Assembly: GCF_023278565.1 (NCBI RefSeq)
Contig: NC_064679.1
Coordinates: forward strand, 5,084,001-5,148,000
DNA: 64,000 nucleotides
Direction of reading: 5' to 3'
Source: Colletotrichum lupini
Lineage: Eukaryota > Ascomycota > Sordariomycetes > Glomerellales > Glomerellaceae
Shown: one piece after another, positions 1,007-53,046 of the stretch
Layout of the letters: the number at the start of each line of letters is the position of its first letter
How positions within the stretch are numbered: the stretch's first letter is position 1
The notes under the pieces: generated by a model
What the model saw: only the letters and a program-made list of their open reading frames with translations
Database searches by the model: none
What the model was told of the DNA's origin: nothing
Translations under genes and position numbers: made by a program

Positions 1007-1094
1007 AAGTGTCAATAGTCTTGGGCTGACTGGTTCCTGGAACTTCGTAGCGGCGGAACTTTCTTGCTGGCAGTTGTTCGATAAACTGAAACTG

Positions 1095-25330: not shown

Positions 25331-25399
25331 CTATATAGCCCCCTTTTTATTATTATTAATAACTAGTTCGCTACGTTATTAAGCTTATTAAGAGCTAGG

Positions 25400-28300: not shown

Positions 28301-28500
28301 ATAGAGGTATTTAATAGTCTATTTAGTATCTCTCCAATTAACGGTAGCGGCGTTCTATTTTTTTATATAATCTTATTAATTATTTTATAATCGACGTAAA
28401 GTCGTAGCTCTCCTCCTTTTTTAAATATAAAAAGGATAGGTGCTCTTACTGGGCTTATAAAGGGGCATATCTAGCCCCTAGCCTCTGCTTTTATTAAATA
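25400..28500 (-). pseudogene. Degenerate gypsy pol: reverse transcriptase, RNase H, integrase, chromodomain
   Basis: Read on the minus strand from high to low coordinates. The RT opens near 28450 with PVRAPILFIFKKGGELRLYVDY, then NRTPLPLIGEIL, FTKLNLKNAYY and the catalytic box VYLDDILIY (28090-28101). RNase H and the integrase core should fill 28000-25850 but are too damaged for me to delimit. The integrase tail is clear near 25800-25650 (RPS-KL, KYLGLFEVEL, then FYISLLGP). It is followed by a chromodomain-like end with YLI--KGYSNKDT-EL near 25500. The RT-RH-INT-chromodomain order defines chromoviruses of the Ty3/gypsy group. Dozens of TAG/TAA stops make it nonfunctional. Confidence 0.8.
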
Positions 28501-29899: not shown

Positions 29900-30700
29900 A
29901 TATAGTATATTTAAAAGGTCTTTACACTACTACTTAAGTAGCTAACTATATATACTACTTTATTACGGTTTATTTTTATTTATTAAGCTTATAAGTTAAA
30001 GTAATAATAATAGTTAAAAAAGAAGCTCTATAAATCCCGTACTAATTTATTAATATATAATAAGTTAGGGAGAGATAGTAGTCTAAATATAAACGTTCTA
30101 TTTATAGCGCTTACTTAAGTTAAAAAGGAGCTAGTAAATAGGGGCTTAGGTAGTACGAACTCGTTACTTTATTATTACTTAAGCGGCGCTTTAAGTACGG
30201 CTTTATTTATCGAACTATCCTTAGTCCGGGGGTTTATATTCCCGTTTATATTAAAGCTAACGTCCGAGGCTACTATAGCTAAGACCGTAACCCTTAGTAT
30301 AAGGGCCGGGCTATTTAAGGAGCTCCGTAGGCGTTCTAAATTTACTTATCTTCTACGTAAGCGCTCTTTATATATTATAATAAGGATTTCTTTTTTTAAT
30401 TATCGTTCCTATTCCTATAGTTTTATTAGCTTATTACTTATTATTCGGTTTAAGTATTAATAAGTAAAGGTAGGAGGTTCGCTATTTTATTTAAAATTCG
30501 TTAATACTCTTAGTAATATAGTCCTTTTATATTATTATTACGTTATTTATCTTACTACGCTTCGTTCTTATATTATTTACTAAGGAGGAGGTAACTCTAA
30601 GGGGTTTAATAAAAAAGAGTTGTCTTTTTTTTATTATTATAATACTAATTACGCTCTCTCGCTACGTCTCGTTCTTATTAATATTTTAAGCTTCTAACTT
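29900..30700 (-). pseudogene. Degenerate gypsy gag-like region
   Basis: The minus strand between the nested insertion site and pol shows a long frame with few stops, including NLERLRSSLNSPALILRVTV and SNEFVLPKPLFTSSFLT. Position upstream of pol fits gag. There is no recognisable capsid motif, so the call rests on location. Confidence 0.4.
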
Positions 30701-30701
30701 A

Positions 30702-30706
30702 GTCCC
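30702..30706. repeat. Left target-site duplication (GTCCC) of the nested copia element
   Basis: GTCCC directly precedes the copia LTR at 30707 and recurs at 38110-38114 directly after its second LTR. It proves that the copia element inserted into the gypsy element as one piece. Confidence 0.85.
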
Positions 30707-30909
30707 TATTAGATTAGAAGTCTAATTCGACCGCGGCATATAGCCGACTGCGCAGGGGCCAATTAGGGGCCCTATTTACGGTTATTATAGCCAGCCTAAC
30801 TTATAGTTAGAACCTCCTTTTTCTACTTACGCAAATATTTATATAGTTTAATTAATCTCTTTATTAACCTACGGTTCGAACTAATTACCCTATAATAAGG
30901 ATACTAATA
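30707..30909 (+). repeat. Copia 5' LTR (nested element)
   Basis: It is 203 bp, beginning TATTAG (RIP form of TGTCGG) and ending ACTAATA (RIP form of ACCAACA). It aligns with 37907-38109 directly and with 801-1006 and 42669-42870 in reverse. Confidence 0.88.
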
Positions 30910-31699
30910 TTAATTAGTAGTTAAATTCTATTATTATAAATTAGTAAGGTATCTCGCTATATAAAAGAGACAACTTCTTAATACCGTACGGGATAAGAGA
31001 TTCGTATTAATTAACCTTATAAAAGTAAACGAAAAAGGAGGCAATTCTTAAATACCGTACGGAATTAAGTAATCGTAGCCCTTTATTACTTACGAGAAGT
31101 TAACGTTTACTATATTAAACTACGTTAATTAATAAAACTATATAAATAACTAGATTTTCGCTATTACCTTAAGCAGCTTTTTTACTAAATAACTTTTCTA
31201 TAGCTAGCTTATAATTAAAAATTAACTAATTAAATTAATAAAAAAAATACCTACGTAGTAACTACCTACTTAATTAATTAGCGTAACGAGCGAGCTTAAT
31301 AATACGGTATAAAAGAGCACCGCGTAATTAAAAAAAAGGATCTCTAAATATAAATATTCTTAGTTAGTATAATAAGAACTTATATAGGAGTTATTAAGCT
31401 AAGAGATCTACGGTATATAAAAAAGTCTATTATTACGAGGATTTTATAAATATAACCTTAAGCCCGTAATCTAAACGACCTCTTCGTAGCTCTTTTAACT
31501 ACCCCTTAAGTATTACTTAGAAATATAATATAAGGGACGGTTTAACGAGGGAAGAGGGGATTTATAAGTCTTAATAATATCGAGTTAAGAATATCGCGGA
31601 TATTAAAAATTAACTTAAAAAGAAAGTAGCTACCCTAAAGTAGTCTTACGACCTCTTATTATAGTTATTATTAGCCTAAGAAAAGGCTAAAAAGACATA

Positions 31700-34600
31700 G
31701 CTCTAAAGAGAAAAGAAAAGAATCCTCTAGAGGGCCGCTAAAGAGCTCTTTTTATACTAGCTCCTAGCGCGAGATTACTAATTTTAAGAAATTAACTAAA
31801 TAATAAAAGGGATCGCTAGTAAGTAATAATTACCTAACCGTAATTAAGCTATAAAAAAAACTACTTAAAAAATATAAAATAAAGTACCGAAAAGCTATAA
31901 GAGAAAAGACCTTTAAGGTATTTAGCCCTACTAAGTACGAACGATAATTAAATATCTTTAATAAGTCCTTAATATCTCCGAGCTTATAAAAAAGAGGGCT
32001 TAACTTTACTAACCGTACCTAATAGCCTATATAGCTCCTCTACGAGCTACCTAGTATTTATATTTAACTATTTTTATAGAATACTACCTTAAAAAAAGTA
32101 AGTTAAAAAAGAAAGCTATTTAAAAATCACGGAGAGTACGAGGCTTAAGAGACTAAAAGTATATAAAATAGCGGAAATTGATAACTAATAAAGATCCTAA
32201 AACTAATTATTATATTTTCTTATAGTAATATAAACGTTTACTACTACTATTAAAAAAAGGAACTATTAAAACCTACTTTTTTATACTAAATAAAAAAGAG
32301 GATCTTAGTAAGTATAATAATAAGTAATCTAAAAGGGTAGTAGTAATTACTAAAAATAGTAAAAACAAGAGTAGTAACGAGACGGTAAGAAGAAGCGGGA
32401 ATCTCCTAAACCCTAATAAATTCGTTAAGTAATAAAAGTACGGATTTATTACGGCTAGTGCGCAGATTAGATATATCCCCGTTAAGGTTAAACACGCTAA
32501 TAATTACTAATATAAGCATAAGCTAGAGCACGACCCTTAGTAAATTAGGGTAAAGAAAAAGAGGATAAAACCCGATCCTAAATAAAATCCCCATCCTTTA
32601 CAAGTAAGTAAATATTAACCCGGATTATTAGGGGACGTAGATATATAGAATTATAGATTAACTTAATAGTAAGTAAATTAACGTAATATTAATCTATTTA
32701 ACTAAGGTATATAAAAAAAAGGGGCTATAGGGGTAACCCCTATTTTATAAGATTATAAACGACCTTAGCCACTAGTTAAATAAATAGTTCGCGAGCGCAA
32801 GCCTAAGAATCGCAAAAGTAATTAATAAATTCCTTTATAAATAAGGGATATTACTAGTATAATTATAATTATAAAAACCGTATAAAATCCTAGTAGTAAC
32901 GATTATAAAGAAGGAATTCGTACTATAAAACTAGGTATAAGTTAATAAGGCGTACAATCGCTTTAACGAATTTAAAAAAAGGGTAAATAACGTAGATTTC
33001 CTCCCTATAATTACTAATAGTAATCTATTATTATAAAAGGATATATAAAAATAAAATATAGTACTAAAAGTACGATAATTAATAATTCTACCTATTTTAA
33101 TCTATAGCTCGTCGCTACTACTAATACGAAATTCGGCACTAATTAGCTAATAAAAAAGGAGGCAAACGACCCAAAGTCACTAATAGTACGCAGCTACATA
33201 GGGATCGTATATAAATATTAAAAATATAATAATAAATACGAGGTAATTTATAGACCTTAAAAAGATCTTTTTAAAAAAGAAATTATACTCTAGGGGGAAG
33301 TATAAGGTCTTATAAAAAACCCTAACGATATTTTATAATTATTATAAAAAGGTCGGGATTAGGGAATACTAGTACTATTTAGTAATTAATATTATATTTA
33401 TAAATAAAGCCTCTAATTATTACTATAAAGCGGTACGTAATCTCGATTAAAACGACTTTTTTAGTATTATTAACGTAATCCAAAGCCGCTTCGAGACCTA
33501 TAATAAGAACTTAGAGCTCCTATTTAAGCTACGAGCAATTTCTTTTATATCTATAGTTAGGATAATAGAGGGTAGATCGTAAATAAAAATCCTTAAAGAG
33601 CTTATTAATCGAATTAATAAGCTAGTAAAAACCTAGCTAAATAAGGGAACTAATAAGCGGAAAGTTGGATATTTTTATACCATAGTCTAGTATATATTAA
33701 AAATAAAAATAACTCTATACTAGGCACCCGAAGACTACGAAACGCTCTACTTAAAGCTAAGATCTAGCTTTAATATTAAAGTAAGAATAAAAATACCGCG
33801 CTAAACCTACCTCTAAGTATATAACGGCCCTTATTAATAATATTAAGTCGATCGAATATATAATAAGAAAAAAAAAGAGGCTAGGTACGGTAATCGCTAG
33901 TAAAAAGGCCCAAATTCGTTAAATAGGCTAAGATTTAACTCGCGAGCAGGGTAATAAAAAAAATAATATTATATTTATAAAAAAGATAGATATTAATTAA
34001 ATAACTACTCTAAAAAAGAGCGTACTAAATCGTATAAATAATATAAAAAGTCGAGGGTAGTAGATAGTAAAACTAGCCCTCGTTAGTTTAACTAATTCCT
34101 TATTATATATAAAGGTAGATCCGGGGGTATAGAACTTAATCACGGTAGTTAAAATAATAGCCTAAAGTATCTACCCCTTATAAAAGATTTAAAAAATAAA
34201 AAAGATCTTACCCCCTATACTAATAAATTAAATTATAATAAAATCGACGATATTAACTACTCTTTTTTTACCCCATTAGCCTCTAGAGGATATATGAGGC
34301 TAAATAAATAAAAGGTAGTAAAAGCTCTTAATAAGTAAGCTTTTTTTTATAAATAGTAAGGGAAGGTCCCTTAAATAACGGATATAGAGGTAGCTAAAAA
34401 GGCGAATTTAATAGGGCTAAAGCCCATTCTCTTAACGCTTAAAAAAAGACGCTATCTCTCTTAATATTTAAAAAAAAGAAATATAGTACTAAGTAAATCT
34501 AGGGGTAGTTAGAGGGGTCCTTTTTATACTACTTAGATCCCTTAAATACTAAGCTCGTATAAGTATTCTATACGAGCAAAAGGTACGGCCTAGATAATTT

Positions 34601-37600
34601 CTATAGGATTATCCTAAATACTAGGGTATTATAATAATTAATAAGAAGAAAAGGGTAATTCTAAGCGCTATAAAAGATCGTACTAATAATGCTTAATACG
34701 TTAATAGCGGGTATTATAAAGATTAGCTTCGGCCTAAGTAAGGAAATCGTTACCCTAAGTACGATAGAAATAAAAACGTACTTTAGAACGATAACTTTCT
34801 ATATTTTACTTATTAATACCCTATTTCTTTTATATTTAAAAGATATAGATCGACTAGGTATTATATTTAATAATATAAAGAATAGAATCTTTAGTAATAA
34901 GCACTTCGAGATAGTCGAACGACAACAGGGGCATATATTTATAAAGCTCACTAATAATATAAAGTTAATTAATTACCTAACAAAAAGTAAGCTCAAACGA
35001 CTATATTAAAAATTCGGGCACCCGTTAGTTACGAGGCTATATAACCTCTTAAAGTAATTAGGTAATAATAATATCGAAATAGGGGCGCTAGAGTAGTTAA
35101 CGAAAGTATACCACTAATACTAAATAAATACGCAAAGCCTACGCAAATTCAAGTTTAAATTACGTAATAAGCTTAACTTTAACTAAGAAATCGTTATTAA
35201 TATCTTTTACTTAAATAGTTAGCTAGTACTATATATAATTAACATAGCTATATCCTTTTAAATAGGGTAATTCCTCTAGGATTTATAAATAAAAATAGTA
35301 TAAGTAGCCCTATAAAAAAGCTAGATCGATATATACTAGGGACCGCTAGATAGTATTAAAACCGACGCTAGCACTAGCTTTAAATTAATAGAATTTAAGG
35401 ATAATATAACGGCCTACGGTATATAGCTAAAAGTTATACTTATTAAAGTATATTATAATATTAAAAAGGTAAAAAGGGCATACTAGTAGTTAAAAAGGGT
35501 ATTTAGAATTATTAAAAAAGAAAATCCGGATTTCACTAATAACAAATGCCTCTAGATAGTACTTAAATACTATAACGATATTATAGGGCCTAATGGACTT
35601 ATACTAACGCTATTAGTATTTAGAGCATATTTAAAAACGACCTTAGCCTTACTACTATCGCTAGACATAAGCTAACGAGCCCGAGTAATTAAAAAAGTAA
35701 TACGGGTACTACGCAAAATAAGTATAAAAAAGTAAGTTAACAAAGTAATTACTATGCGCAATAGGCCCGATATAGGGGGTAATTTAAATATAATACTAAA
35801 TTTAGATATATAAGTATAATATAAAATTACCTAAAAGTAGGCTAGGCTATATAAGTTAATTTTTATTAACGAGCGCTCTTATATAGTTACGAGAGATCGT
35901 AACTAGCTACTCAAAGTATTAATTATAATAATTAGACCGTACTATATAGATCCTAACGAGGTAATTTCTAACTTATAAAAAGAAAAAGAGCCAAGGGAAA
36001 CTATATAACCCGTAGTAGAGGCATAAGAAATTATCCTTAATAAAATCGTTATAGTAGTACTAATAAACGATAAAGAAGAAAAAATTACTAAAAGAGTACT
36101 AATACTACTAGTAAGACGTCGTAAAAGACCACGATAGTAAGCCCTAACGTAGTAATTTATTATTAATAACGAAGTAATTAATACCTTTTATATAATAAAA
36201 AAGAAAGCTAATTTCGAGCTAGCGGTTAAACTACGTAAAGAAGGTATAATTATAACTATTAAAAAGCCGTATAAAGGATTAGATCTTATTAAAGTAAATA
36301 CTCTTCGTAATCGAGGGGTCTATTAGTTTATCCTCTACGACTTAGAGAAGTATATAAACCTCTATATATTTAAATTATAAATAGTTCGTAAAATTAAAAG
36401 GAAAAGAACACCCCAGCCGTACGAGAAGTCTAAATACGTAATTTAAGAATATGGTAACGTTAAAAAAGCAACGCTACTTATATAATCGCTTATTATATAG
36501 CGCTATAGCTAACGATTAATAATAGTACTAATAGTATTGTTATAGAAGAAGGGATACGAGATTTAGGGCCGTAATATTACCTAAGCCTATACCTAATCGG
36601 CTATAGGGCTTATAAGGAAAATCCTAGCCTATTTATTAAAGGAAATAGCTAGTAAGTACTTAAAAGGTACGATTATTAAAGTGCTTAAGCTACTATATAG
36701 GCTCGTAGAATCGGGCACTTATTAATAGGCCACTTACTACGATTTTTATATTAATTAATTATTAATAATTACTTTTACGTATAACCCGTACTTACTAGTC
36801 TCTAAGTACGAAAGTAACTAATTTAAAATCGTTAGAATATAGACTAACGATATATTAGGCCTATTTAATATTAACTTTATAAAAAAAGAGGATAAGGAGC
36901 TCTAAAAAGCAGGCTTCGTAACGAATCTAAAAGAGGTCCTTATAATAAATACCCCCCTAGTATTTAATAATAGGATTTTTATAATTAAAAGGGAAACCGT
37001 CGTCTTTTAATAAAAGGGGTAGGGTAAAAAGATTAACCTCGTTAATCTAAATATAACTAACGTTAAAAAGTAATATAAGGCTAAGCTCGCGTAAGGGGTA
37101 TATATTATAAGTATTTATTAACTTAAGGTAACTTTTAATTACGCTAAGGTAGTATAAGCTATAGATCTAACTAAATAAGACGTTAAAGTACTTAATAAGT
37201 AGCTTAAGTAGTAGTAAATAAATCTTAATCGAGGCCTCGTTTACTACCCAATCGACTTTATAACTAATAAGCTCTACGTCTTCGTTAATAGGTTATTTAT
37301 AAATAATAATAACCTTACTTCGTAATTAAAGTATATTATTATCTTAGCTAACGAGAGTATAGGCGAGAGCGAATTTAATATATATAGTAATATAATCCAC
37401 TACTCGTTAACTAAAAATAAGTAAATAACGAGAAGTATACTAGTATTAGAGGTCTATAGTATAGTTAATAGTATTAACTTCTCTTATGCAATTTTAATAA
37501 CGCTAAAAAAGATTACTAATTAACTTAGCCTTCTACTTATTCTAACGGTTATTTATACCGATTCCTACTTATTATACAAATACCTTATTAAATTAGGAAC

Positions 37601-37790
37601 GATAAAAAAAAAGAGGTTTATAATTAATATTATAGCCCTTAGGTAATCGTATAAAAGGCATAAGATACTTAAAATCCGTTAAATTAATAATAAAAATAAC
37701 CTCGTAAACGCTTTTATAAAAGTAGTACTAAATAAGGGGTTAGAGTAATTTATAAGTAGTAAAAAAGTTACTATATAAATAAAGGGATAG
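31700..37790 (+). pseudogene. Degenerate copia gag-pol
   Basis: Interrupted by TAA/TAG throughout. The only stretch still open for about 100 codons (34689-35009) is the protease end, containing FYILLINTLFLLYLKDIDRL and LGIIFNNIKNRIF. It is followed by a His-containing pre-integrase segment (KFGHPLVTRLYNLLK). The RT shows SPTIQRYSQRLIIVLALLL, KGTIIKVLKLLYRLVESGTY and the catalytic loop as RI-TNDILGLF. RNase H ends with the segment KRHKILKIR. The start codon at 34689 is an accident of mutation, not a gene start. Confidence 0.8.
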
Positions 37791-37906
37791 GTTATATAAA
37801 AAGAGTAAAGAAAAGGGGGAAAAAGAGATAACTTAATAAATAGGCCCGAGGTCGAATTATACCTCTAACCGTAGTAGTTAAATCGATAAAAAAAAGAGAA
37901 AGTTAG

Positions 37907-38109
37907 TATTAGATTAAAAGTCTAATTTAACCGCGGTATATAGCCGACTACGCAGGGGCTAATTAGGGGCCCTATTTATAGTTATTATAGCTAGCCTAAC
38001 CTATAGTTAGAACCTCCTTTTTCTACTTACGTAGATATTTATATAATTTAATTAATCTCTTCGTTAACCCACGGTTCGAACTAACTACCCTATAATAGGG
38101 ATATTAACA
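37907..38109 (+). repeat. Copia 3' LTR (nested element)
   Basis: It is 203 bp, beginning TATTAG and ending ATTAACA, and matches 30707-30909 apart from RIP-type transitions. It is immediately followed by the duplication GTCCC. Confidence 0.88.
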
Positions 38110-38114
38110 GTCCC
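38110..38114. repeat. Right target-site duplication (GTCCC) of the copia element
   Basis: Matches 30702-30706 exactly. The following 23 bp (38115-38137) are the remaining gypsy leader before the gypsy 5' LTR. Confidence 0.85.
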
Positions 38115-38137
38115 CTTTATAAATAGAGATTTTAAAT

Positions 38138-38338
38138 TATTAATAAGTATATAATATAGGGAAGAAGCTTATAAAGGCTAACTACTATTAAGGTCTAAAA
38201 GAGGAATTACTAAAATCTGCCCTTCCCTCGAGGTATACTACTAGCGCTCTATATATACCTAAGCTACTCCTTTGTTACTTAGTCCCCCTCTTTATGCCTA
38301 CCCCTTAACCGACGAGGCCTGACCGGCGAGGCCTGACA
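38138..38338 (-). repeat. Gypsy 5' LTR (right end)
   Basis: It is 201 bp. The inner part begins TATTAATAAG (RIP form of TGTTAATAGG), while the outer 60 or so bases are undamaged and end with two near-repeats of GCGAGGCCTGAC. It pairs with 23593-23793. Confidence 0.88.
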
Positions 38339-40709: not shown

Positions 40710-42998
40710 ATGGGATCTTTACCACAGGAGATTATTTACGACTTCATCGTATGCGGGTAAGTTAATCGTCATGAAGCATGTCTTTCTATACCTAAGCTGG
40801 CGGCTGACATCAAGTCCTCAAGCGGCGGTACTTCCGGCTGCGTCGTCGCGAGCCGCCTTGCTGAGAATTCTGGTGTGAATGTTCTAGTCATCGAGGCTGG
40901 TGAACACAATGAGAATCTTGAGAATGTTCACATGACAGGAGGGTAGGCAATTATTTCTACTAGTACAGTTGATTGCGAGCTAATTGTCTGACTTTGACCA
41001 CAGTTGGTCACAACTGTTCGATAAGGATACCGATTGGAACGTCATCAGCGAGAAGAAATCTTCAGTCAACAATCGCCAGGTTAAACTAAGCCGTGGAAAG
41101 TTCCTTGGCGGCTGCTCTGGTTGCAACGGTACTCTATGCATTCGCGGTGCCAAGCAGGACTATGATGACTGGGGAGTCGAAGGCTGGACGGGTGACGAGG
41201 TTTTCAAATACATTCGAAAGGTCAGTAATAATCCCGTACCCTGGAGGCTTTCTGATCTTGGCCACACTGTTCTCTCTTGAGCTTCCAATTCCGTGTCTCT
41301 TTGCAAGTCGCTAATCTCTTGTGAATATTAGGCAGAGAACTTTCACGGAAAACCTTGGTTCGAAGCCTCCAAAGATCATGGCACTAATGGCCACCTCAAC
41401 ATCGAACCACATGACCTCGCTCCTATTTCAAACCTCATAATGGACTCCATGGTATTCAAAGGACTGCCGCTAGACCACGACATGTTCTCACACGGAGAAA
41501 ATCCTCATGGATGTGGACATGCACCCAGAACAGTCCACAAGGGCTTGCGAACCACTGCGGCAGACTTCGTCACAAAGGAAAACAAGAAGGATAACCTTCA
41601 TCTACTTGTTGAGACCCATGTTGAAAAGGTTATCATCGAGGAGGTAGATGGCGGGCTCAGGGCAACAGGTGTCAGGGTGGTCAAGGCCGATGGCTCTATC
41701 GTCGACATCAAGGCCCGCAAGGAAGTCATTGTAAGTGGCGGCGCGTACTGCAGCCCCAACATCCTCAACCGATCTGGTGTCGGGGCCAAGGCCGAGCTCG
41801 ACAGTTTTGGTATTCCGACGCTGGTTGACTTGCCCGGTGTCGGCAAGAATCTCATGGACCATCTTGTAAGTGCCCCATAGCCTGCATACCGAGAGATACC
41901 GCTAACCTAGCCTGTCTCAAGATTGTCTTCATGTTCTACGAAACCGAAAAAGCTGGTCTGACCAACGACCACCACGTCTACCACGGCGACAACTTTGCAA
42001 AGACGTACGCCCTCTGGAAGGACCAACAAGCAGGCTTCTTGTCTACATTCCCCTTTGGAGCATTCGCCTACGCCCGTCTGGACGAGCGCCTCGCTGACTC
42101 AGAGCTTTGGAATAACGCCCCAAGGCAACCCGGCCGCGACCCAATGGGCCTTACGCCCAAGCAGCCAAACATTGAATTCTTCACCACTGAGTGCTACGGA
42201 GGTCCGAAGCAGTATGACCAGTTCCCGACTGACGGCAAGTACGCCTTCAGCATGATTGCGGAGCTCTTCGGGCCTCGGTCCCGCGGTACAGTTACGCTTC
42301 GCGACACCGGTGCCAAGTCTGTCCCAGTCGTGGACACGAATTACCTCTCTGATCCATTGGATGCAGAGGTTCTGGCTGAGGCGTGCCGCTTCGGTAACGA
42401 AATTATCATGGAAGGCGCAGGGACTAAGGATATTGTCAAGGGTTCTTGGCCCAGCGATTTGGTACATCACAAGCACACCACTCGCGAGGATTGGATACCC
42501 TATGTTCGGGACAACGCAACAACTTGTAAGTTTTCCTGATTCCACTCATCCACAACTTGCTGATCGTTGGTCTGTTCCTTAGGTTACCATGCTGCGGGAA
42601 CCTGTGCCATGGGCAACGCATCTGACCGCAATGCGGTTGTCGATCCGACACTCACAGTGATGGGTGTCTGTTGGTATCCCTATTACAGGGTAGTTGGTTC
42701 GAACCGTAGTTGACGAAGAGATCAATTGAACTATATGAATATCTGCGTAGGTGTAAAAAGGAGGTTCCAACCGTAGGTTGGGCTGGCTACGATAATCGTA
42801 AATAGGGCCCCCAATTGGCCCCTGCGCAGTCGGCTGTATGCCGCGGTCGAATTGGACTTCCAATCCGACAGTGTCAAAGGCCTTCGAGTTGCTGACTGCA
42901 GCATTATGCCCGTTCTCAATGGCGGTCATACCCAGATGCCTGCGTATGGAATCGGAGAAAAGGCGGCTGACCTTATCAAGGCGTCATGGAAGCTTTGA
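40710..42998 (+). pseudogene. GMC-family FAD oxidoreductase, last exon split by a solo LTR
   Basis: Glucose-methanol-choline type oxidoreductase, probably acting on an alcohol or sugar. Exons are 40710-40756, 40823-40942, 41004-41220, 41332-41865, 41922-42525 and 42583 onward; all phases fit. Family marks: the FAD Rossmann GGGTSGCVVASRLAE, the KFLGGCSGCNGTLCIRG loop, the GGAYCSPNILNRSGVG signature, and the catalytic His in YHAAGTCAMG. At 42669 a 202-bp LTR interrupts the codon run after TVMGV, and the 5-bp GTGTC is repeated behind it. Reading into the LTR reaches TGA at 42711, giving about 550 residues instead of 576. The lost 40 residues include the conserved NGGHTQ...AYGIGEKAADLI end, with the second active-site residue and FAD contact. 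All other exons look intact, so the break is recent. Confidence 0.88.
42669..42870 (-). mobile_element. Solo copia LTR inside the GMC gene
   Basis: It is 202 bp from TGTTGG to CCGACA, flanked on both sides by GTGTC (42664-42668 and 42871-42875). It matches the LTR of the copia elements at 1-1006 and 30707-38109, but is essentially free of RIP changes and is identical to 948-1006 over the last 59 bases. There is no internal domain, so it is the product of LTR-LTR recombination. With one duplication unit the insertion adds 207 bp, a multiple of three. Confidence 0.93.
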
Positions 42999-43090: not shown

Positions 43091-45088
43091 CTACTCCCTC
43101 TTGAACACTGGCATCCATTCTAGAGGAGCATCAATCTCGATCCACTTTCCGCCCTCATATGTGTCCGTCTTCCCTTCGAGGAGTGGCTTCCACTTGCCTC
43201 CTGCCTCCAGCTGGGGGAGATAAACCTTGATGTTCCTCTTCTCCGCCTCCAGCACCGGGCACACCAAGTACTTGCTGCCAAACATGTACTGCTGACCGAT
43301 CTTCCAAGTCTCTTGATCCTTCGGAAACTCGTAGAACAGCGTCCGCATGACAGGCGTACCCTTTTCGTGCGCCTCCTTCATCAGAGAACGGGTGTAATCA
43401 CGCAACTCCTCTCGGAGGAACATGTACTTCTTGCAAATCTCGTAGACCTCAGGTCCATAAGACCAAACCTCATTTGGCGCGCCGCTATGGCATTCAGCGC
43501 CCCCCGTCGTGCCATGCTGGGGCTGCTCAGGCTCTCGGCATCCATGGAGGCGGAAAACCGGACAGAAAGCACCCCATTGGAACCACCGGACGAACAGCTC
43601 GCGGAACTTTTCGTCCCGCGGGTCTCCGCCGTGGAAGCCACCAATATCAGTCGTCCACCATGGAAGACCGGATAGGCCCATGTGTAAGCCAGCTGCGACC
43701 TGGTTGCGCAGACTTCCCCAGGATGAGGCAATGTCACCGCTCCAGACTAAGGCACCATACTTCTGACTTCCAGCCCATGCACATCGGATGAGGTTCACAA
43801 TGTTCTTTTGCCCCTCAGCCTCCATTCCCTCGTAGAAGGCCTTTGCGTACTCGACGGGGTAAATGTTGCCGATCGAGACGTTGGATCCCAGGTGATACCG
43901 ATACGTGTCGAAATCGTACACCGTGTATTCGGGTTCGGCCTCATCCAGCCAAAAGACACGGATGCCCTTGTCATAGTAGTTTTTCTTGGCCTTCTTCCAT
44001 ACGTAGTCTCTTGCTCCGGGATTGGTGGCGTCAAAATGCGTCGTATCGCCCTGGAAGTTCATGGCAATCCGGATGCCTCTATCAGACTGAATGAGGTACC
44101 CCTTCTCGACCATCTCATCCCAATTCTCAGACTTGTGGTCAACAGTGGGCCAGATGGAAACCATCAATTCGATCTTGAGCTCTTGCAACTCTTTGATCAT
44201 AGCATCCGGGTCGGGCCAGTACGTAGGGTCGAATTTCCACTCTCCCTGCAGCGGCCAGTGGAAAAAGTCAATGACAATAAGGTCAATGGGCAACTCGCGT
44301 TTCCTGTACTCGCGTGCAACTTCCAAGAGTTCTTCCTGCGTTTGGTATCGCAGCTTACATTGCCAAAACCCAAGACCGTACTCTGGCATCATCGGAACCT
44401 TGCCCGTGGCATCAGCGTAAGCTTCGACGACTTCGGCCGGAGAATCGCCAGCGACGATCCAGTAGTCGAGGGCCCGGGTTGACTTGGCCTCGAAGCTCAT
44501 GATGTTACGGCCCAGAATCGCTCTTCCGACTGACGGGTTGTTCCACAAAAGGCCGTAACCCAGCGAGGATACCGCGAACGGGACGCTGGCCTGGGAGTTC
44601 CTGTGAGCGAGCTCGAGATCGTGGCCCTTGAGATCCAGGAATAGTTGTTGGTACTGTCCCATGCCGTAGATCTTTTCCTCTGCGTCAACACTTTCGAATC
44701 TCGCAGTGAGATGGTAGTCATTGCTGTTGACGATGGCCAGGAACTCGCGTGCCTCGACGTCGAGGGCGCTGCACTTGGGGTCCAGGACATCCCGTCGGTG
44801 GCGCGAGTATTCCTCGAGCAGCAGCTCGCCCTTTGAGTTCCACATCATGAGCTTACCGCCACTGGTTATGGAAGCCTTGATCTTGCCATTGGTGATTGTT
44901 CCGGCCTTGTCGTCAATGATGATTTTGGCATCTGCTTTCTCGGGCTTGAGCAACGCCCAGTCTTCGGTAGGCATCTCACGAGCCTTGGTAGCCCGCACTC
45001 GAAAGGAATCTAGCCCCCATGGCTCGACCCAGACTTTCTCCGCGTCGTAGGTGTAGACAAGCTTCCCATCCTGCTCTTTGAGGCCCAT
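43091..45088 (-). CDS. Glycoside hydrolase family 31 alpha-xylosidase-type enzyme
   Basis: Predicted retaining alpha-glycosidase, most like intracellular alpha-xylosidases that trim xyloglucan oligosaccharides. Single exon, 665 residues, no signal peptide, so probably cytosolic. The layout is an N-terminal beta-sandwich (1-230), a catalytic barrel starting at PEYGLGFWQCKLRYQ, then beta-domains. The catalytic nucleophile is Asp382 in FWLDEAEPE and the acid/base Asp452 in WSGDIASSW. The segments IDLIVIDFFHWP, GLPWWTTDIGGFHGG and FRLHGCREPEQP are typical. It converges with the broken GMC gene (92 bp apart). The plus-strand frame at 43808-44482 is an antisense shadow. Confidence 0.93.
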   Translation of the reverse strand: MGLKEQDGKLVYTYDAEKVWVEPWGLDSFRVRATKAREMPTEDWALLKPEKADAKIIIDDKAGTITNGKIKASITSGGKLMMWNSKGELLLEEYSRHRRDVLDPKCSALDVEAREFLAIVNSNDYHLTARFESVDAEEKIYGMGQYQQLFLDLKGHDLELAHRNSQASVPFAVSSLGYGLLWNNPSVGRAILGRNIMSFEAKSTRALDYWIVAGDSPAEVVEAYADATGKVPMMPEYGLGFWQCKLRYQTQEELLEVAREYRKRELPIDLIVIDFFHWPLQGEWKFDPTYWPDPDAMIKELQELKIELMVSIWPTVDHKSENWDEMVEKGYLIQSDRGIRIAMNFQGDTTHFDATNPGARDYVWKKAKKNYYDKGIRVFWLDEAEPEYTVYDFDTYRYHLGSNVSIGNIYPVEYAKAFYEGMEAEGQKNIVNLIRCAWAGSQKYGALVWSGDIASSWGSLRNQVAAGLHMGLSGLPWWTTDIGGFHGGDPRDEKFRELFVRWFQWGAFCPVFRLHGCREPEQPQHGTTGGAECHSGAPNEVWSYGPEVYEICKKYMFLREELRDYTRSLMKEAHEKGTPVMRTLFYEFPKDQETWKIGQQYMFGSKYLVCPVLEAEKRNIKVYLPQLEAGGKWKPLLEGKTDTYEGGKWIEIDAPLEWMPVFKRE

Positions 45089-45772
45089 GATGCTCTTATT
45101 CTTGCAAACAAGTCACGGCTTACAGGACAATGATATGGTGATCGGGGTGTTTAAGAAGTCTTGAGCAGTGCCGTGGTGTACAAGTACAGAGACAGGATGG
45201 TGAGGGGTAGCTTTCCATTCATCGGATGCAGCTTCTTCTTGTACGTGTAGCATGCAGAGCAGAACTACTCATGACCCAGCAAAAGATGATCTCCGGCTGC
45301 GGAGTTGCTCCTGTTGCCATGAGACGATGGATGAAAAGCGCAGGTCGAAACGGTGCCACGACAAAAGGCAGATGACATGCCAGGCCTCCAATTGACCACT
45401 CGGATGCCGTGAAAGCCGCCATGTCCACTGCGGCCATCGGAATGCCCCGCATCTGCCGGATTGAGGGGAAGTTGGGGGTCACGTCTGGGGTCTTTGATGC
45501 TGCGAAGGATCCGCACCCACGGACTCAAGGTTGAAGATAGTTTCAAAATGGTTATTAGGCTATTCGGGGGAGCAACAAGTGCAAACTCTAATATTACTGG
45601 AGATCGATGTCCCAACTTCCACCTAGCTCTTGAGCTGGAGTAACCGACGACAATAGCTGTATGCATACATAGTACATGAGGCAGAATCGCCTCTCCATAC
45701 TTCAACGGGTATCATTCCTTAATAGTTCTTCGACCACTGATCCATAGCTCAAACACACACCAGGCCGCTCCA
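45089..45772. other. Intergenic, GH31 promoter and MFS 3' flank
   Basis: About 680 bp. Short unsupported open frames only. It holds the promoter of the GH31 gene and the terminator of the MFS gene, both on the minus strand. Confidence 0.6.
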
Positions 45773-47578
45773 TTACTTGTGCTTCGTAGCAAAAGACTCT
45801 CTCGTGTTGACTCTGTCAATATCGTACGGGTTTCCATCGTAGGACTTCCGGCGTGTCGAGGCCAGGCTCATCGTCCGTCGTGTGTGATGCGTGCTCTGGC
45901 GGCGCATGGATGAGCGATCGTCAGAAGATGACGCATCCGAGTCGACAGTATCGCTCGCCACAGTTTCTTGTCCACCGCTAACTTCCGGCTCCTTGTCTGA
46001 AGACGACGTATCCTCTTCCCGCAACCGCGCCATGAAAGCCTCTGATTGTGCGGCAAACTTGCAGCGTGCTCGGATTGCGGGACCATACTTGTAGAACAAG
46101 AACGGAAACGGAACGCAAGCGAGAGCCAGGAACGCGGGGATTGATGACGCCCAGTTCGTGCCGAGATCTTTATACATGTAGGTCGTGAACAGAGGGAACG
46201 CAGCGCCGAAGCAACTGCGGATAACGGAGTTGGCGGCGAGTACACTCGCCGCGAAGATGGTGTAAGCGTCGATAAGGTAGTTCATGACGCTCAAGAACAG
46301 CAAAACCATTCCGAATCCGAACGGTACGCCGGCGGCGATGCTGACCATCCAGTGGATGTCGGCATTGTTGGTCCAAGCAAACCAGAATAGACCGATGGGA
46401 ATCGCCACGCCTCCAACCATGGCTGATGGAAGACGGGTTTCCGGAGGAGCAAATCCGCCGTTTCTCTCTTGTACTCGCTTGTACCGACCGTTCTCGGGTA
46501 GTGTGTAAATGATGGCGAAAACCATGCCGACCATGATGCCAAGGAAGGCAAGTCCGCCAATTCCCTGTGACCATCCTCGTTCTTGTTGATAGACGATAGG
46601 GAAGGCCGCAAACAGCATGTAGAGAGTTCCGTAAATGATGGCCATGTAAAGCGACAGGAGCAATACAATGGGCTCACGGAACAGCAGGATCCAGGGCCTC
46701 GATAGGGCCGTCTTGAACGACTCTGCCAGACTGATCTTGCCCTGCTCGTGTTCAATCTTGCTGACGTAGACCTTGCCAGTCATCTTGGACAGCTTCGCAG
46801 CTCGCTGCCGAAGCAGATACGGCGCATAGGTCTCGGGGACGAGGGCGGTACCCAGAAGCCAAAGGGTCCCAGAGAACGCAGCCAAGAAACCCATGACCCA
46901 TCGCCAGCCCGCCGCGGCTCCGAGGAATCCACCGATGATGGGTCCCAAAACAGGTCCGAGGAACGGCGCGGCAGCAAACAACGCCATCGCCAAGCCTCTG
47001 TCAGCGGCCGGGAACATGTCGGCGATGACACCGCCCGAGTTGGCGAGTGGAGATGAGCCAAAGGCACCGGCGAAGAAGCGGAGGACGATGAGGGTTGTGG
47101 CTGAGTTGGCGCCGGCGCAACCGGCGTTGAATGCCGTGAGGATGGCATAGGTGCCGAAGAAGAGCGACTGGCGTCCAAAGAGTTCACTGAGCGGTGCCCA
47201 GAGTAAAGGACCAATGGCGAATCCGAGAACGAATAGGGACACGCCCAAAGTCGCGACTTCCTGGGAGATGCCGAACTCAATGATGATTTGGCGTATGCCG
47301 CCCGTGTAGGCTGATGAGAGCAGCGCTACTGCTAATGTGGTCAACGACACCATGAATGTGATGAACCATTTTGTCGCTTTGCTAAATAGCATTGGGTTCC
47401 TGGGATCGTTGGGAATCCATTGCACCAAGAAGGGATCTGCTTCTGTGCCGGACCCAGGATATCGATAGTCGGCTACTTCCTGTGTTATCCCTGCTTGATC
47501 GGTGACTATGCGCCAGTATGGTATTCTCGTGTGGACGGGAGGCTCGCCAATATCGTTGGCTGCCTTTTCTTGCGCCAT
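45773..47578 (-). CDS. MFS transporter, DHA1 drug/polyamine:H+ antiporter type
   Basis: Predicted 12-helix exporter of the plasma membrane, similar in layout to fungal TPO1/FLU1-type carriers. Single exon. I take the ATG at 47578 (MAQEKAANDIGEPP, in context CGCGATGGCG), giving 601 residues. The frame is open to 47800, but that extension looks like translated leader. Marks: VQWIPNDPRNPMLFSKATKW before helix 1, a region typical of this family; the motif A-like segment LSELFGRQSLFF; the motif C-like segment GPVLGPIIGGFLGAAAGWRW; PETYAPYLLRQRA after helix 6. A Ser/Asp/Arg-rich cytosolic tail of about 90 residues (SSSDKEPEVSGG ... RRKSYDGNPYDIDR) follows helix 12 and may carry phosphorylation sites. 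The substrate is unknown. Confidence 0.91.
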   Translation of the reverse strand: MAQEKAANDIGEPPVHTRIPYWRIVTDQAGITQEVADYRYPGSGTEADPFLVQWIPNDPRNPMLFSKATKWFITFMVSLTTLAVALLSSAYTGGIRQIIIEFGISQEVATLGVSLFVLGFAIGPLLWAPLSELFGRQSLFFGTYAILTAFNAGCAGANSATTLIVLRFFAGAFGSSPLANSGGVIADMFPAADRGLAMALFAAAPFLGPVLGPIIGGFLGAAAGWRWVMGFLAAFSGTLWLLGTALVPETYAPYLLRQRAAKLSKMTGKVYVSKIEHEQGKISLAESFKTALSRPWILLFREPIVLLLSLYMAIIYGTLYMLFAAFPIVYQQERGWSQGIGGLAFLGIMVGMVFAIIYTLPENGRYKRVQERNGGFAPPETRLPSAMVGGVAIPIGLFWFAWTNNADIHWMVSIAAGVPFGFGMVLLFLSVMNYLIDAYTIFAASVLAANSVIRSCFGAAFPLFTTYMYKDLGTNWASSIPAFLALACVPFPFLFYKYGPAIRARCKFAAQSEAFMARLREEDTSSSDKEPEVSGGQETVASDTVDSDASSSDDRSSMRRQSTHHTRRTMSLASTRRKSYDGNPYDIDRVNTRESFATKHK

Positions 47579-49454
47579 CGCGAGGTCGAAATGGTGATAG
47601 ACGCGTCCAAGAAACTTGTGGGTACACGCCAGAAGGAAGAGTCGAGAGAAGAGGAGCAAGGAAAGGTGAGCCAAGTGAGAGCGGAGGACGGATATGCCAA
47701 TGGAACAGGTGCCAAGAGCAAACGGCGAGGGGGACAAGGGGGGAAATAAGCCGGGGACGAATTGTATTTGTAGAGTGACCGGGGAGGAAGAAAAACACAC
47801 ACATCCAACAGCAGCGGGAATGACGAAATATACAGGATCACAGGGTCCGAAATAAAACGGCTTACGGGCGGGAATGGGGACCGAATGGTGCTGAATCCCG
47901 TTTTACCGTGCCCACTACACGCGCCGCTTCGGGTGGCTTCGCCTGTCGGATCGATCTTTTGTCTGCATTGCATACGCATATACGGTGCACATCTTCTCGA
48001 TCTAGTGCTCACGATCCCGTAGTAGCCGAGACGAACACCCGGGTCGCCATGTTTCTACTCTGGATAGCTTCAGCCCAGTGCACTGGATCAGTGAGTAAAA
48101 CCCCCGTACGTGCGTGGCACTGCAGGTATGGTGCTTTGAAATCGTGGTGACGACAGAGATGTTGTGTTGGTGCGCCCTTCTTTGAGTCTTTGCTGGTGCT
48201 GGTGGGACAGCCCGGCTCCGACTAGGCTTAACTCCGTCCTCTAGCGTGTAGAGGTGTGGTCCGGCAGCATAGCTTCCCGCCGTGTGTTCACAAAGTTATG
48301 CAAATTCGGCCCCCGAAAGACTCTTCAGGTTGTCAATCTCCCTCGCAAATACATGTAACCACCCCTGAACTTATCATACTCATTCCGTTGAGGTGGTGAT
48401 GGGAGCCTGATGTTTTATTGCCTCCTTCGTGTTTCGGAAGGACCCTGAAATAGATCAGATTGGGACCTTGAGATTTACGAGAGATACACGGTTACATGCA
48501 TCCAGGTGGCAAGGTAGCTTGGCGTTGGTAATCTTCATCCAAGTGTCGTCTATTGTTCTTAACTCTAACACCACAGACCACCAAAGCACAACATGAAATT
48601 ATAAAGATGTGACAGTCTGGTGTTGATGGGAGGAAGTTCATCTGAGTAATTCTGTCAGACTTGTCATTGAAATTGATGGACATTTCTTTTTAGAGTTTTC
48701 CCCGCGGATGCTACGTATGCCAAACCCGCTGCGGTTTGCGGGGACAGCCCGGTTACCATAGTTCTGGAACATTGAACATGAACACCGTCTGTGTATGCAT
48801 TCGGCTGTCGCAATCCTTTTTTTTTCCTTGCGTCTATATCTTATTGTTTACTTCTCCGGTCCGCATCGCATCGGAGTGATCTCGTGGAAGAGAGAACTTT
48901 GGAATGTGCTGTCGAGATGGCGCTCATCCTCAAGTGATTACAGCAGGTAGGCTGTTTTGATGCACGAATAAGGCCAGACTGACCGGTGCGACTCAACGAG
49001 TCATGGACCAGCAGATTCATAAATGTGAATTAGACCCGCTTTTTCGGAACGGCCTGCCTCCGGCGTGTCTGCATAACTCACGGGGCTGTTATTCGGAGTC
49101 GGGGCGGGTTTAGGATATCCTAACGCCAGAAGGCTCCCACGAGGTGCAGTAGTGAGTCAACGCTAGGCAAGGATGTCATTACTTTCAAATTTCAAAGATT
49201 GCATTCCCTAGGCATTGGATATTCTTTGATTTTCTAGTGCATGCGACACGTACTTACTTTTGTGAAATTGCAACTTCGCGTCTAGAAACCATGCCCACCT
49301 TGCTGAGAAGTCCCATACCTAAGGTAAGTAAGTATGTTTACGTGTACATTACCTATGCTCAGGTCACATTCAGCAAAGTTCAGTCAGTTTGTTGAATCCA
49401 CTTTCAGCTTCATTCCAAACGTTTAAGTTTCATTTCAAAGCCGATGGGAGCAGA
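47579..49454. other. Intergenic, MFS promoter and 3' flank of an SDR gene
   Basis: About 1.9 kb. No coding motif found. A pyrimidine-rich leader precedes the MFS start (left), and a T-run lies near 48818-48826. Short open frames on both strands are unsupported. Confidence 0.6.
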
Positions 49455-50264
49455 CTATCTCGAAGTATAACCTCCATCAACCATCAACGCAGACCCAGTC
49501 ACAAACGAACTCCTGCCGCCAGCCAAGTACAAAACACCATCGGCAATCTCCTTTGGACTTCCCATTCGTTGCATCGGCACCGCGGTCGAGACTCTCTCCT
49601 CCATCGCCTTCAACACCTCGGGGTTCTTGGTCGTCATTGGTGTCTCTGTGTACCCAGGGCAGATGGCATTGATGCGCAAGCCCTGGTTGGCATAATCCTC
49701 GGATGCAGTGCGCGTCAACCCGATGACGGCGTGCTTTGTCGTCGTGTATGCCGTAGAAAGTGTGATGCCCACAACACCCTGGATAGAGCCAAAGTTGACA
49801 ATGGACCCCTTTTGCAAAGGTCTGCCGTCAATTGTTGACAAAATCGGCTCTTGCTTCAGCATGATCTGCGCTGCCGCCCTCAGCACGTAAAACGTTCCGT
49901 TGATGTTCACGTCGAGAACCCGCTGCCAGTCTTCCGTCTTGGCGAACGCGGCGCCGCCCTTGTGCTTGATGGCGATGCCGGCGGCGTTGACAACATAGTC
50001 CAGCCTGCCAAACTTGGCTGCTGCTTCATTGACGACCTTGATGACTTCCTCCTCGTTGGCGATGTTGATGGGGTAGGTGAGCAACTCAATCTTGCGGTCT
50101 TTTCCGAACTCGGCTTCGATTTCCTCTTTGACTGTCTTGAGCGCGTCTGCGTTGAGATCTAGTAATGCGATACCCGCGGAGCCTTCTTGGGCGAAACCGC
50201 GAGCACATGCTCTACCAATGCCAGAGGCTGCACCTGTAACTAGAGCAAAGCCGGGGACGTCCAT
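49455..50264 (-). CDS. Classical short-chain dehydrogenase/reductase
   Basis: Predicted NAD(P)(H)-dependent oxidoreductase, single exon, 269 residues. Cofactor motif TGAASGIGRACARGFAQ (about 10-26), an acidic residue after strand 2 (ALLDLNAD) pointing to NAD(H) preference, the NAAG motif in YVVNAAGIAI, the active-site Ser in IVNFGSIQG and the catalytic pair in AYTTTKHAVIG (Y-x3-K), then PGYTETPM. Length and motifs fit 3-oxoacyl-ACP-reductase-like or alcohol dehydrogenases. An insert of about 15 residues precedes the Ser strand (EPILSTIDGRPLQKG). The substrate cannot be told. It lies 1.1 kb from the BVMO gene on the same strand. Confidence 0.92.
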   Translation of the reverse strand: MDVPGFALVTGAASGIGRACARGFAQEGSAGIALLDLNADALKTVKEEIEAEFGKDRKIELLTYPINIANEEEVIKVVNEAAAKFGRLDYVVNAAGIAIKHKGGAAFAKTEDWQRVLDVNINGTFYVLRAAAQIMLKQEPILSTIDGRPLQKGSIVNFGSIQGVVGITLSTAYTTTKHAVIGLTRTASEDYANQGLRINAICPGYTETPMTTKNPEVLKAMEERVSTAVPMQRMGSPKEIADGVLYLAGGRSSFVTGSALMVDGGYTSR

Positions 50265-51345
50265 GTTATGTGATTAAAGAGGTTTGGAGGAGGAAGTAAT
50301 TGATCAAAAGTTTAGTAATTGTAGTTGAGAAAGCTCAAGGTGATTAATGTCATGCAAATTGTCTATGATGATGTGCTCACAGTTCGTTGATGGTATCCTC
50401 AATAAGTAGTCCATCATCGCGATGTTGCGCATTCGGTGTTCTTAGGTATCGGGCGTGGCTTTCCATTGACGCTCAGGTATGACTTTCCCCATTTGATTCG
50501 GGTGTCTTGACTCCACCTACAGCGACCAACTCCCCCACCCGGCGCGCGGCGTCTGAGGGGTCATCCCGAGAAGCCGCGCTGGCCGATCATCTTGTGCGTC
50601 AGCTGCTGTTATCAAAAGACTAAATGTGACACTTCTTTATGGGCCAAGCCTTTGGCTGCTGGCGGGGTTGAAGAAAGATAGAGACATGTTTTACCCCGCG
50701 GCGATAGTCACATCAGCATTTGGCCGCATGCGCCCTATCAACAGGTCCTTGGTTTTAGTGTAGGGACCCGATGTCGGACATCACGCATATCGTGTTCCGC
50801 GCCGATGTTAGTCAATGAATGCTCACATCTAATATTTCGATTGATCAAAGTCATGCTGCCTCTATGGCTAATGTTTGCTAAGTACGTTTGATAAGGTAGT
50901 TGATACAACGTGGGTGAGGTCATAGCCTTCGTCCTAGCGGCACCGCGTTGTGATGATAGGCTTCTCCTTGTTTGCAGATGACCAAAGGTTTTTGCATCCA
51001 ACTGTGACATATTGTAGCAATCATTCTATTTCGATTAGGAATCTATGTCTAGACCATATGTTTCTTGGTGTTCCGTCTTGGTCAGGCCCTTCTAAGAACG
51101 ACTGAGCTGTGCTATGCTTAACCTCAGCTCAATCAGCGAGCATATTGCATCGTTTTCAGACTACCTTAGCATGCAAGCACACATACGCTTAATCGAGACT
51201 CTCCAAGACAACAGAATCCACACGAGAATGAGAGACAAAAGATAGACTTGAGACTTGTAACTTGGGCGACGCATTACTTGCACTAGAGGATTTTGGTAAA
51301 GTTAATGCGAACCAAATTTTGTAATTGACATGGATAATCTAAAAT
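50265..51345. other. Intergenic, SDR promoter and BVMO 3' flank
   Basis: About 1.1 kb without recognisable genes. A CCGCGG palindrome occurs near 50697, a possible Zn2Cys6 half-site pair, but this six-mer also occurs by chance elsewhere. Confidence 0.55.
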
Positions 51346-53046
51346 CTACAACTTGACACCCTTAGCCTGCCTGGCAAACGTAAGCCCCTGGTAACCAGAC
51401 TCTTTAACCTCCCTGCACCGTCTCTGGAACTCCTGCGCAGATCCACCATATCTGACAACGCTTCTAACCTGCTTGCCCTTAATGTTCGTGTTGACACCCG
51501 TCATCCAACTGTCAACCTCGTTAACAAGTGATCCCTTGCTGCACTCGAACACATGCTCTGTCCAGCCGTCCGCGGCCTCCTGTGTTGCCTCCGCATACGT
51601 GTATCCCCTATCACGGCAAAACTTCAACAAATCCACAACAACCTGTACGGCGTGCTCAATGTTTCTGGTCGCGTTGCCAAACGGCTGATGCGGGCCGAGA
51701 ACCATAAACATGTTGGGCATAGAGGGTACCGTCATGCCGAGGAACGTGTAGGGTCTGTTATCGACCCAAACGGCTCGCTCGCCTTTGGGTGTTCCACTCG
51801 GCGCAATCAGTGGCCGTCCATCTTTGCCTTGCCACTCGATTGCGCTGAAGGAGCCTGTAATGGCATCGAAACCAGTGGCGTAGATCAGGATGTCGAGCTC
51901 GTGCTCCTTGCCGTCGGATGTGATTATGCGGTCAGATTTCACCTCAGAGACCGGGGCCTTCTTGAGGTCAACGAGGTGCACGTTGTCTTGGTTGAAGGCC
52001 TCGAAGTAGCCGCTCTCCAACGGCACACGACGGGTACCAAAACCGTGCGTCTTGGGGATCAGAGACTCGGCCACCTCCGGGTCGTGTACTCTTCCCCTAA
52101 TCTTGTCTGCGATGAAGTTGGAATACAGCTCATTGGCTTGGCGATCCGTATATGTGTCGCTAAAGAGACCCTGCCACTTGCCGAAGCCCGGCTCGTTGTA
52201 TAGTTTCTCCCAAAGGGCGAGGCGCTCTTCTGCCGTAACCTCCATGGACTTGCGTGGGTCCGCCATGTGCATGAAACCTGAGGGTGTGGAGCGGCAGATG
52301 CCGAAAATGTTATCATAGTCTTTCTTAAGCTCTTCCATTTTCTCTGGCGAAATCTCGTAGTTGCGCAAGGGGACGGTCCATGTTGCCGTTCTTTGGAATA
52401 CGCTGATGGACTTGATGCTTGGCTCTTTTGACAGTGCGGTGATAGTCTGGATGCCGGTGGCACCGGTCCCGACAACGCCGATACGCTTGCCAGCAAAATC
52501 GCGGGCAAGGTTCAAGTCTGTCGGCCACCGCGATGTGTGGAAAGACGTGCCCTTGAAATTCTCAATGCCGGGGATAGCTGGTAGTGATGGTGTCGAAAGG
52601 AAGCCGATACAGCTGAGGAAGAAAGTGGTGATGTATTGGTTGCCGTCCTGGTCGACAAATGTCCAGTTATGGGCATCGTCGTCCCAGCGAGCTGATTTGA
52701 CCGTGGTGTTGAACTGAATATGTTTGTAGAGGTCGTTCCTCTCTGCAAAGCGCTTGATATACTTGTGTGTCTCGGGCTGAGGGGAGAAGGCCTCCTTCCA
52801 GTGCCATTCCTCCAAAAGACCCTTGTCAAAGGAGTAGCTATAGGACACAGACTCGCAGTCGAACCGGCATCCGGGGTAGCGATTCCAGAACCACGTTCCA
52901 CCGACGTCTGCACCGTTGTCGAGGACCTTTACCCTGCAATCGGGCATTTGCTCCCGAATGTGGTGCAGACTAGCAAGGCCGGATAGGCCTGAGCCAATGA
53001 TGAGAACATCATACGTCTCTTTCACAGGGGTCGGAATAGAGCCCAT
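51346..53046 (-). CDS. Baeyer-Villiger-type flavin monooxygenase (class B)
   Basis: Predicted FAD- and NADPH-dependent enzyme inserting oxygen next to a ketone. Single exon, 566 residues from the ATG at 53046 (MGSIPTPVKETYDVL); the upstream in-frame ATG at 53088 lacks a family match. Key marks: the first Rossmann GSGLSG at 18-23, the GGTWFWNRYPGCRFD loop near 49-63, the BVMO fingerprint FxGxxxHxxxWP at 164-175 (FKGTSFHTSRWP) and the second Rossmann GVVGTGATG at 190-198. YATGFDAITG and GPHQPFGNATRNIEHAV follow toward the C-terminus. This set is that of cyclohexanone/steroid-type BVMOs. It lies between the SDR and the amino-acid permease, all on the minus strand. Confidence 0.93.
   Translation of the reverse strand: MGSIPTPVKETYDVLIIGSGLSGLASLHHIREQMPDCRVKVLDNGADVGGTWFWNRYPGCRFDCESVSYSYSFDKGLLEEWHWKEAFSPQPETHKYIKRFAERNDLYKHIQFNTTVKSARWDDDAHNWTFVDQDGNQYITTFFLSCIGFLSTPSLPAIPGIENFKGTSFHTSRWPTDLNLARDFAGKRIGVVGTGATGIQTITALSKEPSIKSISVFQRTATWTVPLRNYEISPEKMEELKKDYDNIFGICRSTPSGFMHMADPRKSMEVTAEERLALWEKLYNEPGFGKWQGLFSDTYTDRQANELYSNFIADKIRGRVHDPEVAESLIPKTHGFGTRRVPLESGYFEAFNQDNVHLVDLKKAPVSEVKSDRIITSDGKEHELDILIYATGFDAITGSFSAIEWQGKDGRPLIAPSGTPKGERAVWVDNRPYTFLGMTVPSMPNMFMVLGPHQPFGNATRNIEHAVQVVVDLLKFCRDRGYTYAEATQEAADGWTEHVFECSKGSLVNEVDSWMTGVNTNIKGKQVRSVVRYGGSAQEFQRRCREVKESGYQGLTFARQAKGVKL

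Follow-up and report, generated by a model that had tools for sequence, protein, structure and literature searches.

A solo LTR in the final exon of a Colletotrichum lupini GMC oxidoreductase gene severs a conserved C-terminus and belongs to a family with RIP-mutated full-length members

In Colletotrichum lupini, a GMC oxidoreductase gene is interrupted in its final exon by a 202-bp solo LTR, bordered by perfect copies of a 5-bp target-site duplication, which cuts off the final 40 codons of the reading frame. The insert belongs to a large family, all of whose near-clean copies found in the genome stand singly. The gene most likely gives rise to a truncated product of 550 residues that would lack the conserved histidine of the second active-site position, and the enzyme has probably been lost altogether. 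The locus lies within C6:5084001-5148000, the 64,000-nucleotide stretch of DNA analysed here and hereafter called the window, in a genome of 63,443,975 bases on 12 contigs, one of them 523,226 bases long. Coordinates refer to the window unless stated otherwise.

Up to the insertion, the gene occupies 40710-42668 on the forward strand and encodes 536 codons, a model drawn from its exon structure, Pfam matches and homologues. Coding exons lie at 40710-40756, 40823-40942, 41004-41220, 41332-41865 and 41922-42525, with a sixth running from 42583 onward to the insert at 42668. All five introns have GT-AG borders and the 536 codons upstream of the insert are free of stops, in line with the original prediction of an otherwise intact six-exon gene. 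The interrupted protein matches PF00732 (GMC_oxred_N) at 122.3 bits and the first 112 of the 139 positions of PF05199 (GMC_oxred_C) at 73.5 bits, both over the Pfam cut-off; the insert severs the second domain at that point. Beyond it, at 42876-42998 on the forward strand, frame, Pfam and homologues identify the severed gene end, 40 codons and a TGA that hold the conserved GGHTQ histidine. This tail matches positions 113-139 of PF05199 at 24.0 bits, slightly below the cut-off of 24.6. The break had been placed 41 codons before the stop, which is correct when the stop codon itself is counted (40 sense codons plus TGA). Removal of the LTR and one GTGTC had also been expected to restore the conserved GMC C-terminus, as indeed it does: 536 and 40 residues add up to the 576 of a Colletotrichum abscissum protein that is 99% identical to the gene described here, differs from it at five of 536 residues upstream of the insert, and matches its tail at 40 of 40.

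The gene of C. lupini is thus broken 40 codons before its end, whereas the best 120 of the 1,606 homologues found are all unbroken, with no residue between positions 536 and 537 in any of the 120; the relatives were compared as protein models, in which an insert treated as an intron could go unnoticed. Both Pfam domains are common to the gene and to GMC oxidoreductases of Colletotrichum and other fungi, and its relatives are named GMC oxidoreductase, pyranose dehydrogenase 3 or L-sorbose 1-dehydrogenase in their sources. After C. abscissum, identity is 96% for C. fioriniae and 81-88% for the other listed Colletotrichum proteins. Among the 76 of 84 candidates scored in the C. lupini genome itself, no close paralogue was found: identity is 30-39% for the seven strongest other matches and does not exceed 55% for shorter pieces. 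We considered whether selection on the interrupted gene has been relaxed, in view of F170, which none of 120 homologues shares, and A454, which one of them shares. This was set aside, because other Colletotrichum proteins have similar or higher counts of such residues and the two positions consequently say nothing firm on selection. The neighbouring stretch at 43091-58720 holds genes for a GH31 glycosidase, an MFS transporter, a short-chain dehydrogenase, an FMO-like enzyme, an amino acid permease and a Zn2Cys6 regulator.

GMC enzymes have an active-site pair that consists of the His of a YHxxGT motif and a second His or Asn near the C-terminus. In the C. lupini gene the YHxxGT histidine is retained in the uninterrupted part, and the second active-site position falls within the severed 40 residues, so that the interrupted frame does not carry the complete pair. 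Within this lost part, His554 of the C. abscissum protein is conserved as His in 117 of the best 120 of 1,606 homologues, with Asn in two and Leu in one; in solved relatives the aligned residue is His in 8rpf, an alcohol oxidase, and Arg in 3q9t. When unspliced, the frame reads CWYPYYRVVGSNRS within the insert and then closes at an in-frame TGA (42711-42713, forward strand). The 40 residues are lost because this stop comes 14 codons into the LTR, and without them the enzyme would most likely lack its second active-site residue.

Loss of the enzyme is likely rather than certain, because on paper a splice across the LTR could keep the frame. If the LTR acted as an intron, or lay within one, a complete enzyme could still be made, and 12 GT-AG pairs hold the frame across the insert (donors 42584-42699, acceptors 42800-42904). 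One pair alone is singled out as the best, a 198-nt candidate intron at 42674-42871 on the forward strand (donor GTATCC at 42674, acceptor CGACAG at 42871), whose junction would read MGV-CCV-KGL and whose removal would preserve the whole C-terminus. A stop-free upstream part, only five residues in 536 away from the C. abscissum protein, is also what a functional gene would show. The details of the candidate nevertheless make such a rescue improbable. A CTNAY branch-site motif is absent from its last 60 nt, whereas all five real introns have one, 16-24 nt before the acceptor; just one of the 12 pairs has such a motif, and there it precedes the acceptor by only 10 nt. The candidate donor GTATCC does not resemble those of the real introns, which are GTAAGT (three introns), GTAGGC and GTCAGT, and its length of 198 nt exceeds their 56-111 nt. 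In addition, the protein has phenylalanine at a position where 109 of 120 homologues have serine and none has phenylalanine.

The insert itself runs from 42669 to 42870 on the forward strand, opens with TGTTGG, ends with CCGACA and has two identical copies elsewhere in the genome. Its TG...CA ends are bordered by GTGTC on either side, at 42664-42668 and 42871-42875 (both forward strand), and the gene sequence resumes directly on both flanks, leaving room for neither an element interior nor another LTR. The sequence at 42664-42875 therefore agrees with the earlier description of a 202-bp LTR with perfect 5-bp GTGTC duplications in the last exon. At the sequence level, identification of 42669-42870 as a solo LTR is supported by the family's full-length, RIP-mutated elements, which have such LTRs at both ends. 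It is scarcely conceivable that the arrangement reflects chance or an assembly artefact. We found no point in support of that view, and against it stands a 202/205-bp unit present at 42 or more places over 11 contigs, 40 of 42 with perfect 5-bp duplications, where about 0.04 would be expected by chance among the 42 (our own arithmetic). An Rfam search of 42600-42950 returned no match up to E = 10, and hence no described structured RNA.

Full-length members of the family are found both within the window and elsewhere. In a 7-kb piece of contig C8 (L061), the same LTR sequence stands at both ends of an element at positions 97-6942 of that piece; both LTRs have the solo-type motif and, after RIP, match the solo copy at 86.1% and 88.6% identity. 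Its borders, GTTAT and GTTAC, agree in four of five bases, the fifth being a C/T difference. Within the window, a RIP-mutated full-length element of 7.4 kb occupies 30707-38109 on the reverse strand, with a target-site duplication of GTCCC and an LTR pair in the same orientation (201 bp at 90.5%). Over 6.35 kb it shares 85% identity with L061, and its LTRs belong to a rarer variant that has one extra G and is not exactly the solo type. The RIP-mutated block in the window has a G+C content of 0.27-0.31 and extreme RIP indices. By sequence comparison, the RIP-changed 3' end of another family element lies at 481-1006 on the forward strand and includes an LTR of the less common variant at 801-1006. 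RIP fades along the length of this LTR, its 5' part being changed and its last part nearly like the clean copies. The element at 30707-38109 is the inner one of the nested elements in an AT-rich, RIP-mutated block at 23595-38318, which also contains an RVT_1 match at 27946-28425; direct repeats at 23595-23773 and 38140-38318 (179 bp, 87.7%) are perhaps the LTRs of an outer element.

A RIP-tolerant pattern finds 1,263 solo-type LTR sites and 33 of the other type across the genome. For 75 of the first 100 among the 1,263, a partner lies on the same strand at a distance of 6-8 kb, most often 7.2 or 6.8 kb, with spacings near 6.6, 6.8 and 7.2 kb among the 100 sites listed; this range was picked after the element in the window had been seen, and three clean solo copies were set as unpaired by hand. 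The 33-bp motif is RIP-changed at 70 of the 75 paired sites and clean at five. The 25 unpaired sites comprise 21 RIP-changed and four clean ones, and three of the latter are solo copies already known to be clean. Full elements with partly clean LTRs do exist, given the five clean sites among the 75 paired and the 21 of 100 that are RIP-changed without a listed partner. Clean LTRs found whole are solo, and the sampled full-length elements are mostly RIP-changed, some of their LTRs having a clean motif. Pfam domains were absent from pieces of the two RIP-changed elements (both strands of the window element, forward strand of L061). Inside 38 paired elements on contig C1, 0 of 20 reverse transcriptase matches in range were found, compared with about 0.8 expected by chance on our own arithmetic (150 of 309 RVT_1 candidates scored). 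RIP may have erased the coding-domain signal, and this very large LTR family may be either non-autonomous or erased by RIP.

The clean copies present a different picture. Two genome searches, one with the 202-bp copy and one with the 205-bp variant, each scored the best 40 of 1,299 candidates and together gave 42 near-clean copies on 11 contigs, a lower bound, all at an identity of at least 95.6%. All 42 are single. Perfect 5-bp duplications flank all 30 copies that were fetched with their flanks and 10 of the 12 others. Two solo LTRs (L069 and L072) have merely four matching border bases. The 30 best copies include 14 that are letter-identical at 205 bp and three at 202 bp, the GMC-gene copy among them, and 28 of the 30 have a G+C content of at least 0.42 in the 500 bases on either side. 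Relative to the commonest copy, the 42 copies carry 21 transitions in the direction of RIP and 27 in reverse, and thus show no RIP bias and no excess of C>T or G>A over sister copies. An unmutated full-length parent was not found among these near-clean copies (best 40 of 1,299 candidates per search).

We consider it very probable that a full-length element inserted into the gene, that recombination between its LTRs left the solo copy, and that RIP then struck the long siblings and spared the solo LTRs. In this model, an LTR retrotransposon of this large family (about 6.8-7.4 kb at full length) would have entered the last GMC exon and duplicated GTGTC. Recombination of the two LTRs would subsequently have deleted the interior and one LTR. 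RIP would act on repeats long enough for recognition, leaving full-length siblings mutated and solo LTRs clean. What can be read directly from the genome is the insertion with its duplication, the family to which it belongs, and the difference between single copies, which are clean, and paired copies, which are RIP-changed. We infer the recombination step and the following order of events: family activity, solo formation, RIP of the remaining long copies, then a Copia burst in a RIP-less lineage. The locus had been described as a direct record of insertion, LTR-LTR recombination and loss of a metabolic enzyme. Insertion, solo LTR and severed C-terminus all stand; recombination enters as the probable route, and enzyme loss is qualified by the in-frame splice that exists on paper.

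Alternatively, the 202/205-bp units could be LTR-only, non-autonomous elements mobilised in trans, in which case the GMC gene never held a full-length element. Such movement would fit the single state of every near-clean copy found, the letter-identical sets of 14 and three among the 30 best, and the missing clean full-length parent (again within the best 40 of 1,299 candidates per search). It would also fit the lack of any evident solo LTR in the 40 best LTR hits of a Copia family that is young and present in this genome too. We nonetheless regard it as very improbable. The genome abounds in full-length elements of this LTR type, but they are RIP-changed, so survival alone can account for the clean copies being single. 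We know of no replication route for a lone LTR. Furthermore, the same pattern is described without unit movement in Podospora (PMC10787394).

The Copia family is younger than the solo-LTR family and is not RIP-changed, its 28 copies aligned over 3.7 kb differing by a pairwise mean of 0.17%. Of 53 RVT_2 matches, 33 have no stop and 20 have an open frame of 1,438 codons. Among 30 loci around such matches (L031-L060), all but two of the 29 compared with L031 align to it as one unbroken block at 98.8-99.8%, and one complex array lies near C2:686-699 kb. A 218-bp query from the Copia 3' end, taken as the LTR, gave 40 hits at 100% (best 40 of 291 candidates). A same-strand neighbour lies 2-8 kb from 38 of the 40 hits, four being in one C2 cluster, and the other two adjoin reverse transcriptase matches of the same family; the hits were counted by their neighbours alone rather than by border duplications, and less similar solo copies fall outside the best 40 of 291. 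These 40 best Copia LTR hits are hence all in or beside elements, whereas none of the 42 near-clean copies found of the solo-LTR family lies in a full-length element. The contrast is explained if, as we infer, RIP stopped before the Copia burst. Copia itself was rejected as the parent of the GMC-gene LTR, with no LTR match within 1.5 kb on each side of the 30 RVT_2 loci. A search for rve gave 28 matches, all below the cut-off and, by eye, beside RVT_2 matches.

It had also been argued that the LTR is not RIP-changed and that the loss is thus recent. The first part holds, as there is no RIP bias. The step to recency fails, because at 202 bp the LTR is shorter than the repeats on which RIP is considered to act; the finding that all 42 near-clean copies found are single and that 70 of 75 sampled paired LTRs are RIP-changed in the motif also tells against it. 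RIP is held to require repeats of about 400 bp with 80% identity (PMC2621366, PMC6180176), and Zymoseptoria MITEs are likewise said to evade it through their short length (PMC9970103). The length limit is not absolute, since a 275-bp repeat was RIP-changed in another fungus (PMC2621366).

An insertion that is very recent and still variable among isolates, as first proposed, is therefore unlikely, although several observations would suit it. The GMC-gene copy has no substitution in its 202 bp relative to the commonest copy and is identical to two others, the upstream coding frame is intact, and TE insertions in general vary from one C. lupini strain to another (PMC11645255). Short LTRs, however, date an insertion poorly and tend to evade RIP. 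At the rate of 1.05e-9 per site and year used for Colletotrichum (PMC6180176), itself uncertain, one substitution in 202 bp is expected only every 4.7 million years or so, and zero changes allow approximately 14 million years at 95%. The 30 best copies, which were picked by likeness to the GMC-gene copy and so lean towards the young, carry 18 substitutions in 6,090 sites, a mean of 0.3% from the commonest copy, compared with about 0.09% for the Copia burst (half its mean pairwise difference). In addition, RIP of the full-length siblings after the family's burst would put the insertion before the last sexual phase. C. lupini is now taken as clonal, with no sexual state recorded but inter-lineage genetic exchange seen (PMC10189766), and rare sex is left open in PMC11645255. 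The GMC-gene copy stands at the young end of its family, a relative placement rather than a demonstration of recency in absolute terms or of variation among isolates.

The closest likeness to the proposed history is provided by the solo LTRs of crapaud and grenouille in the Podospora anserina complex, as described in PMC10787394. There, as in C. lupini, an LTR family is rich in solo LTRs; the LTRs of full copies are RIP-changed and the solo LTRs mostly are not, which is ascribed to their small size, and bursts are made up of solo copies only. The two cases differ in family and host, in LTR length (339-443 bp for crapaud, 202-205 bp here) and in the high-GC full copies of Podospora, for which we found no clean counterpart. 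In Mycosphaerella fijiensis, 135 solo LTRs of Gypsy and Copia elements are ascribed to recombination (PMC3562529), as proposed here. The literature on solo LTRs and Colletotrichum that was accessible to us, including parts of PMC5445492, contained no solo LTR in a Colletotrichum gene.

The damage to the GMC oxidoreductase gene is of an ordinary and already known kind. It offers a clear worked example of a retrotransposon scar ending a conserved enzyme gene, in a probable crop pathogen that is taken as clonal. More generally, it cautions against equating the absence of RIP with youth, as solo LTRs, being short, remain clean where the long members of their family are mutated. Clean solo sites are possible markers with which insertions, RIP and the loss of sex may be ordered between lineages.
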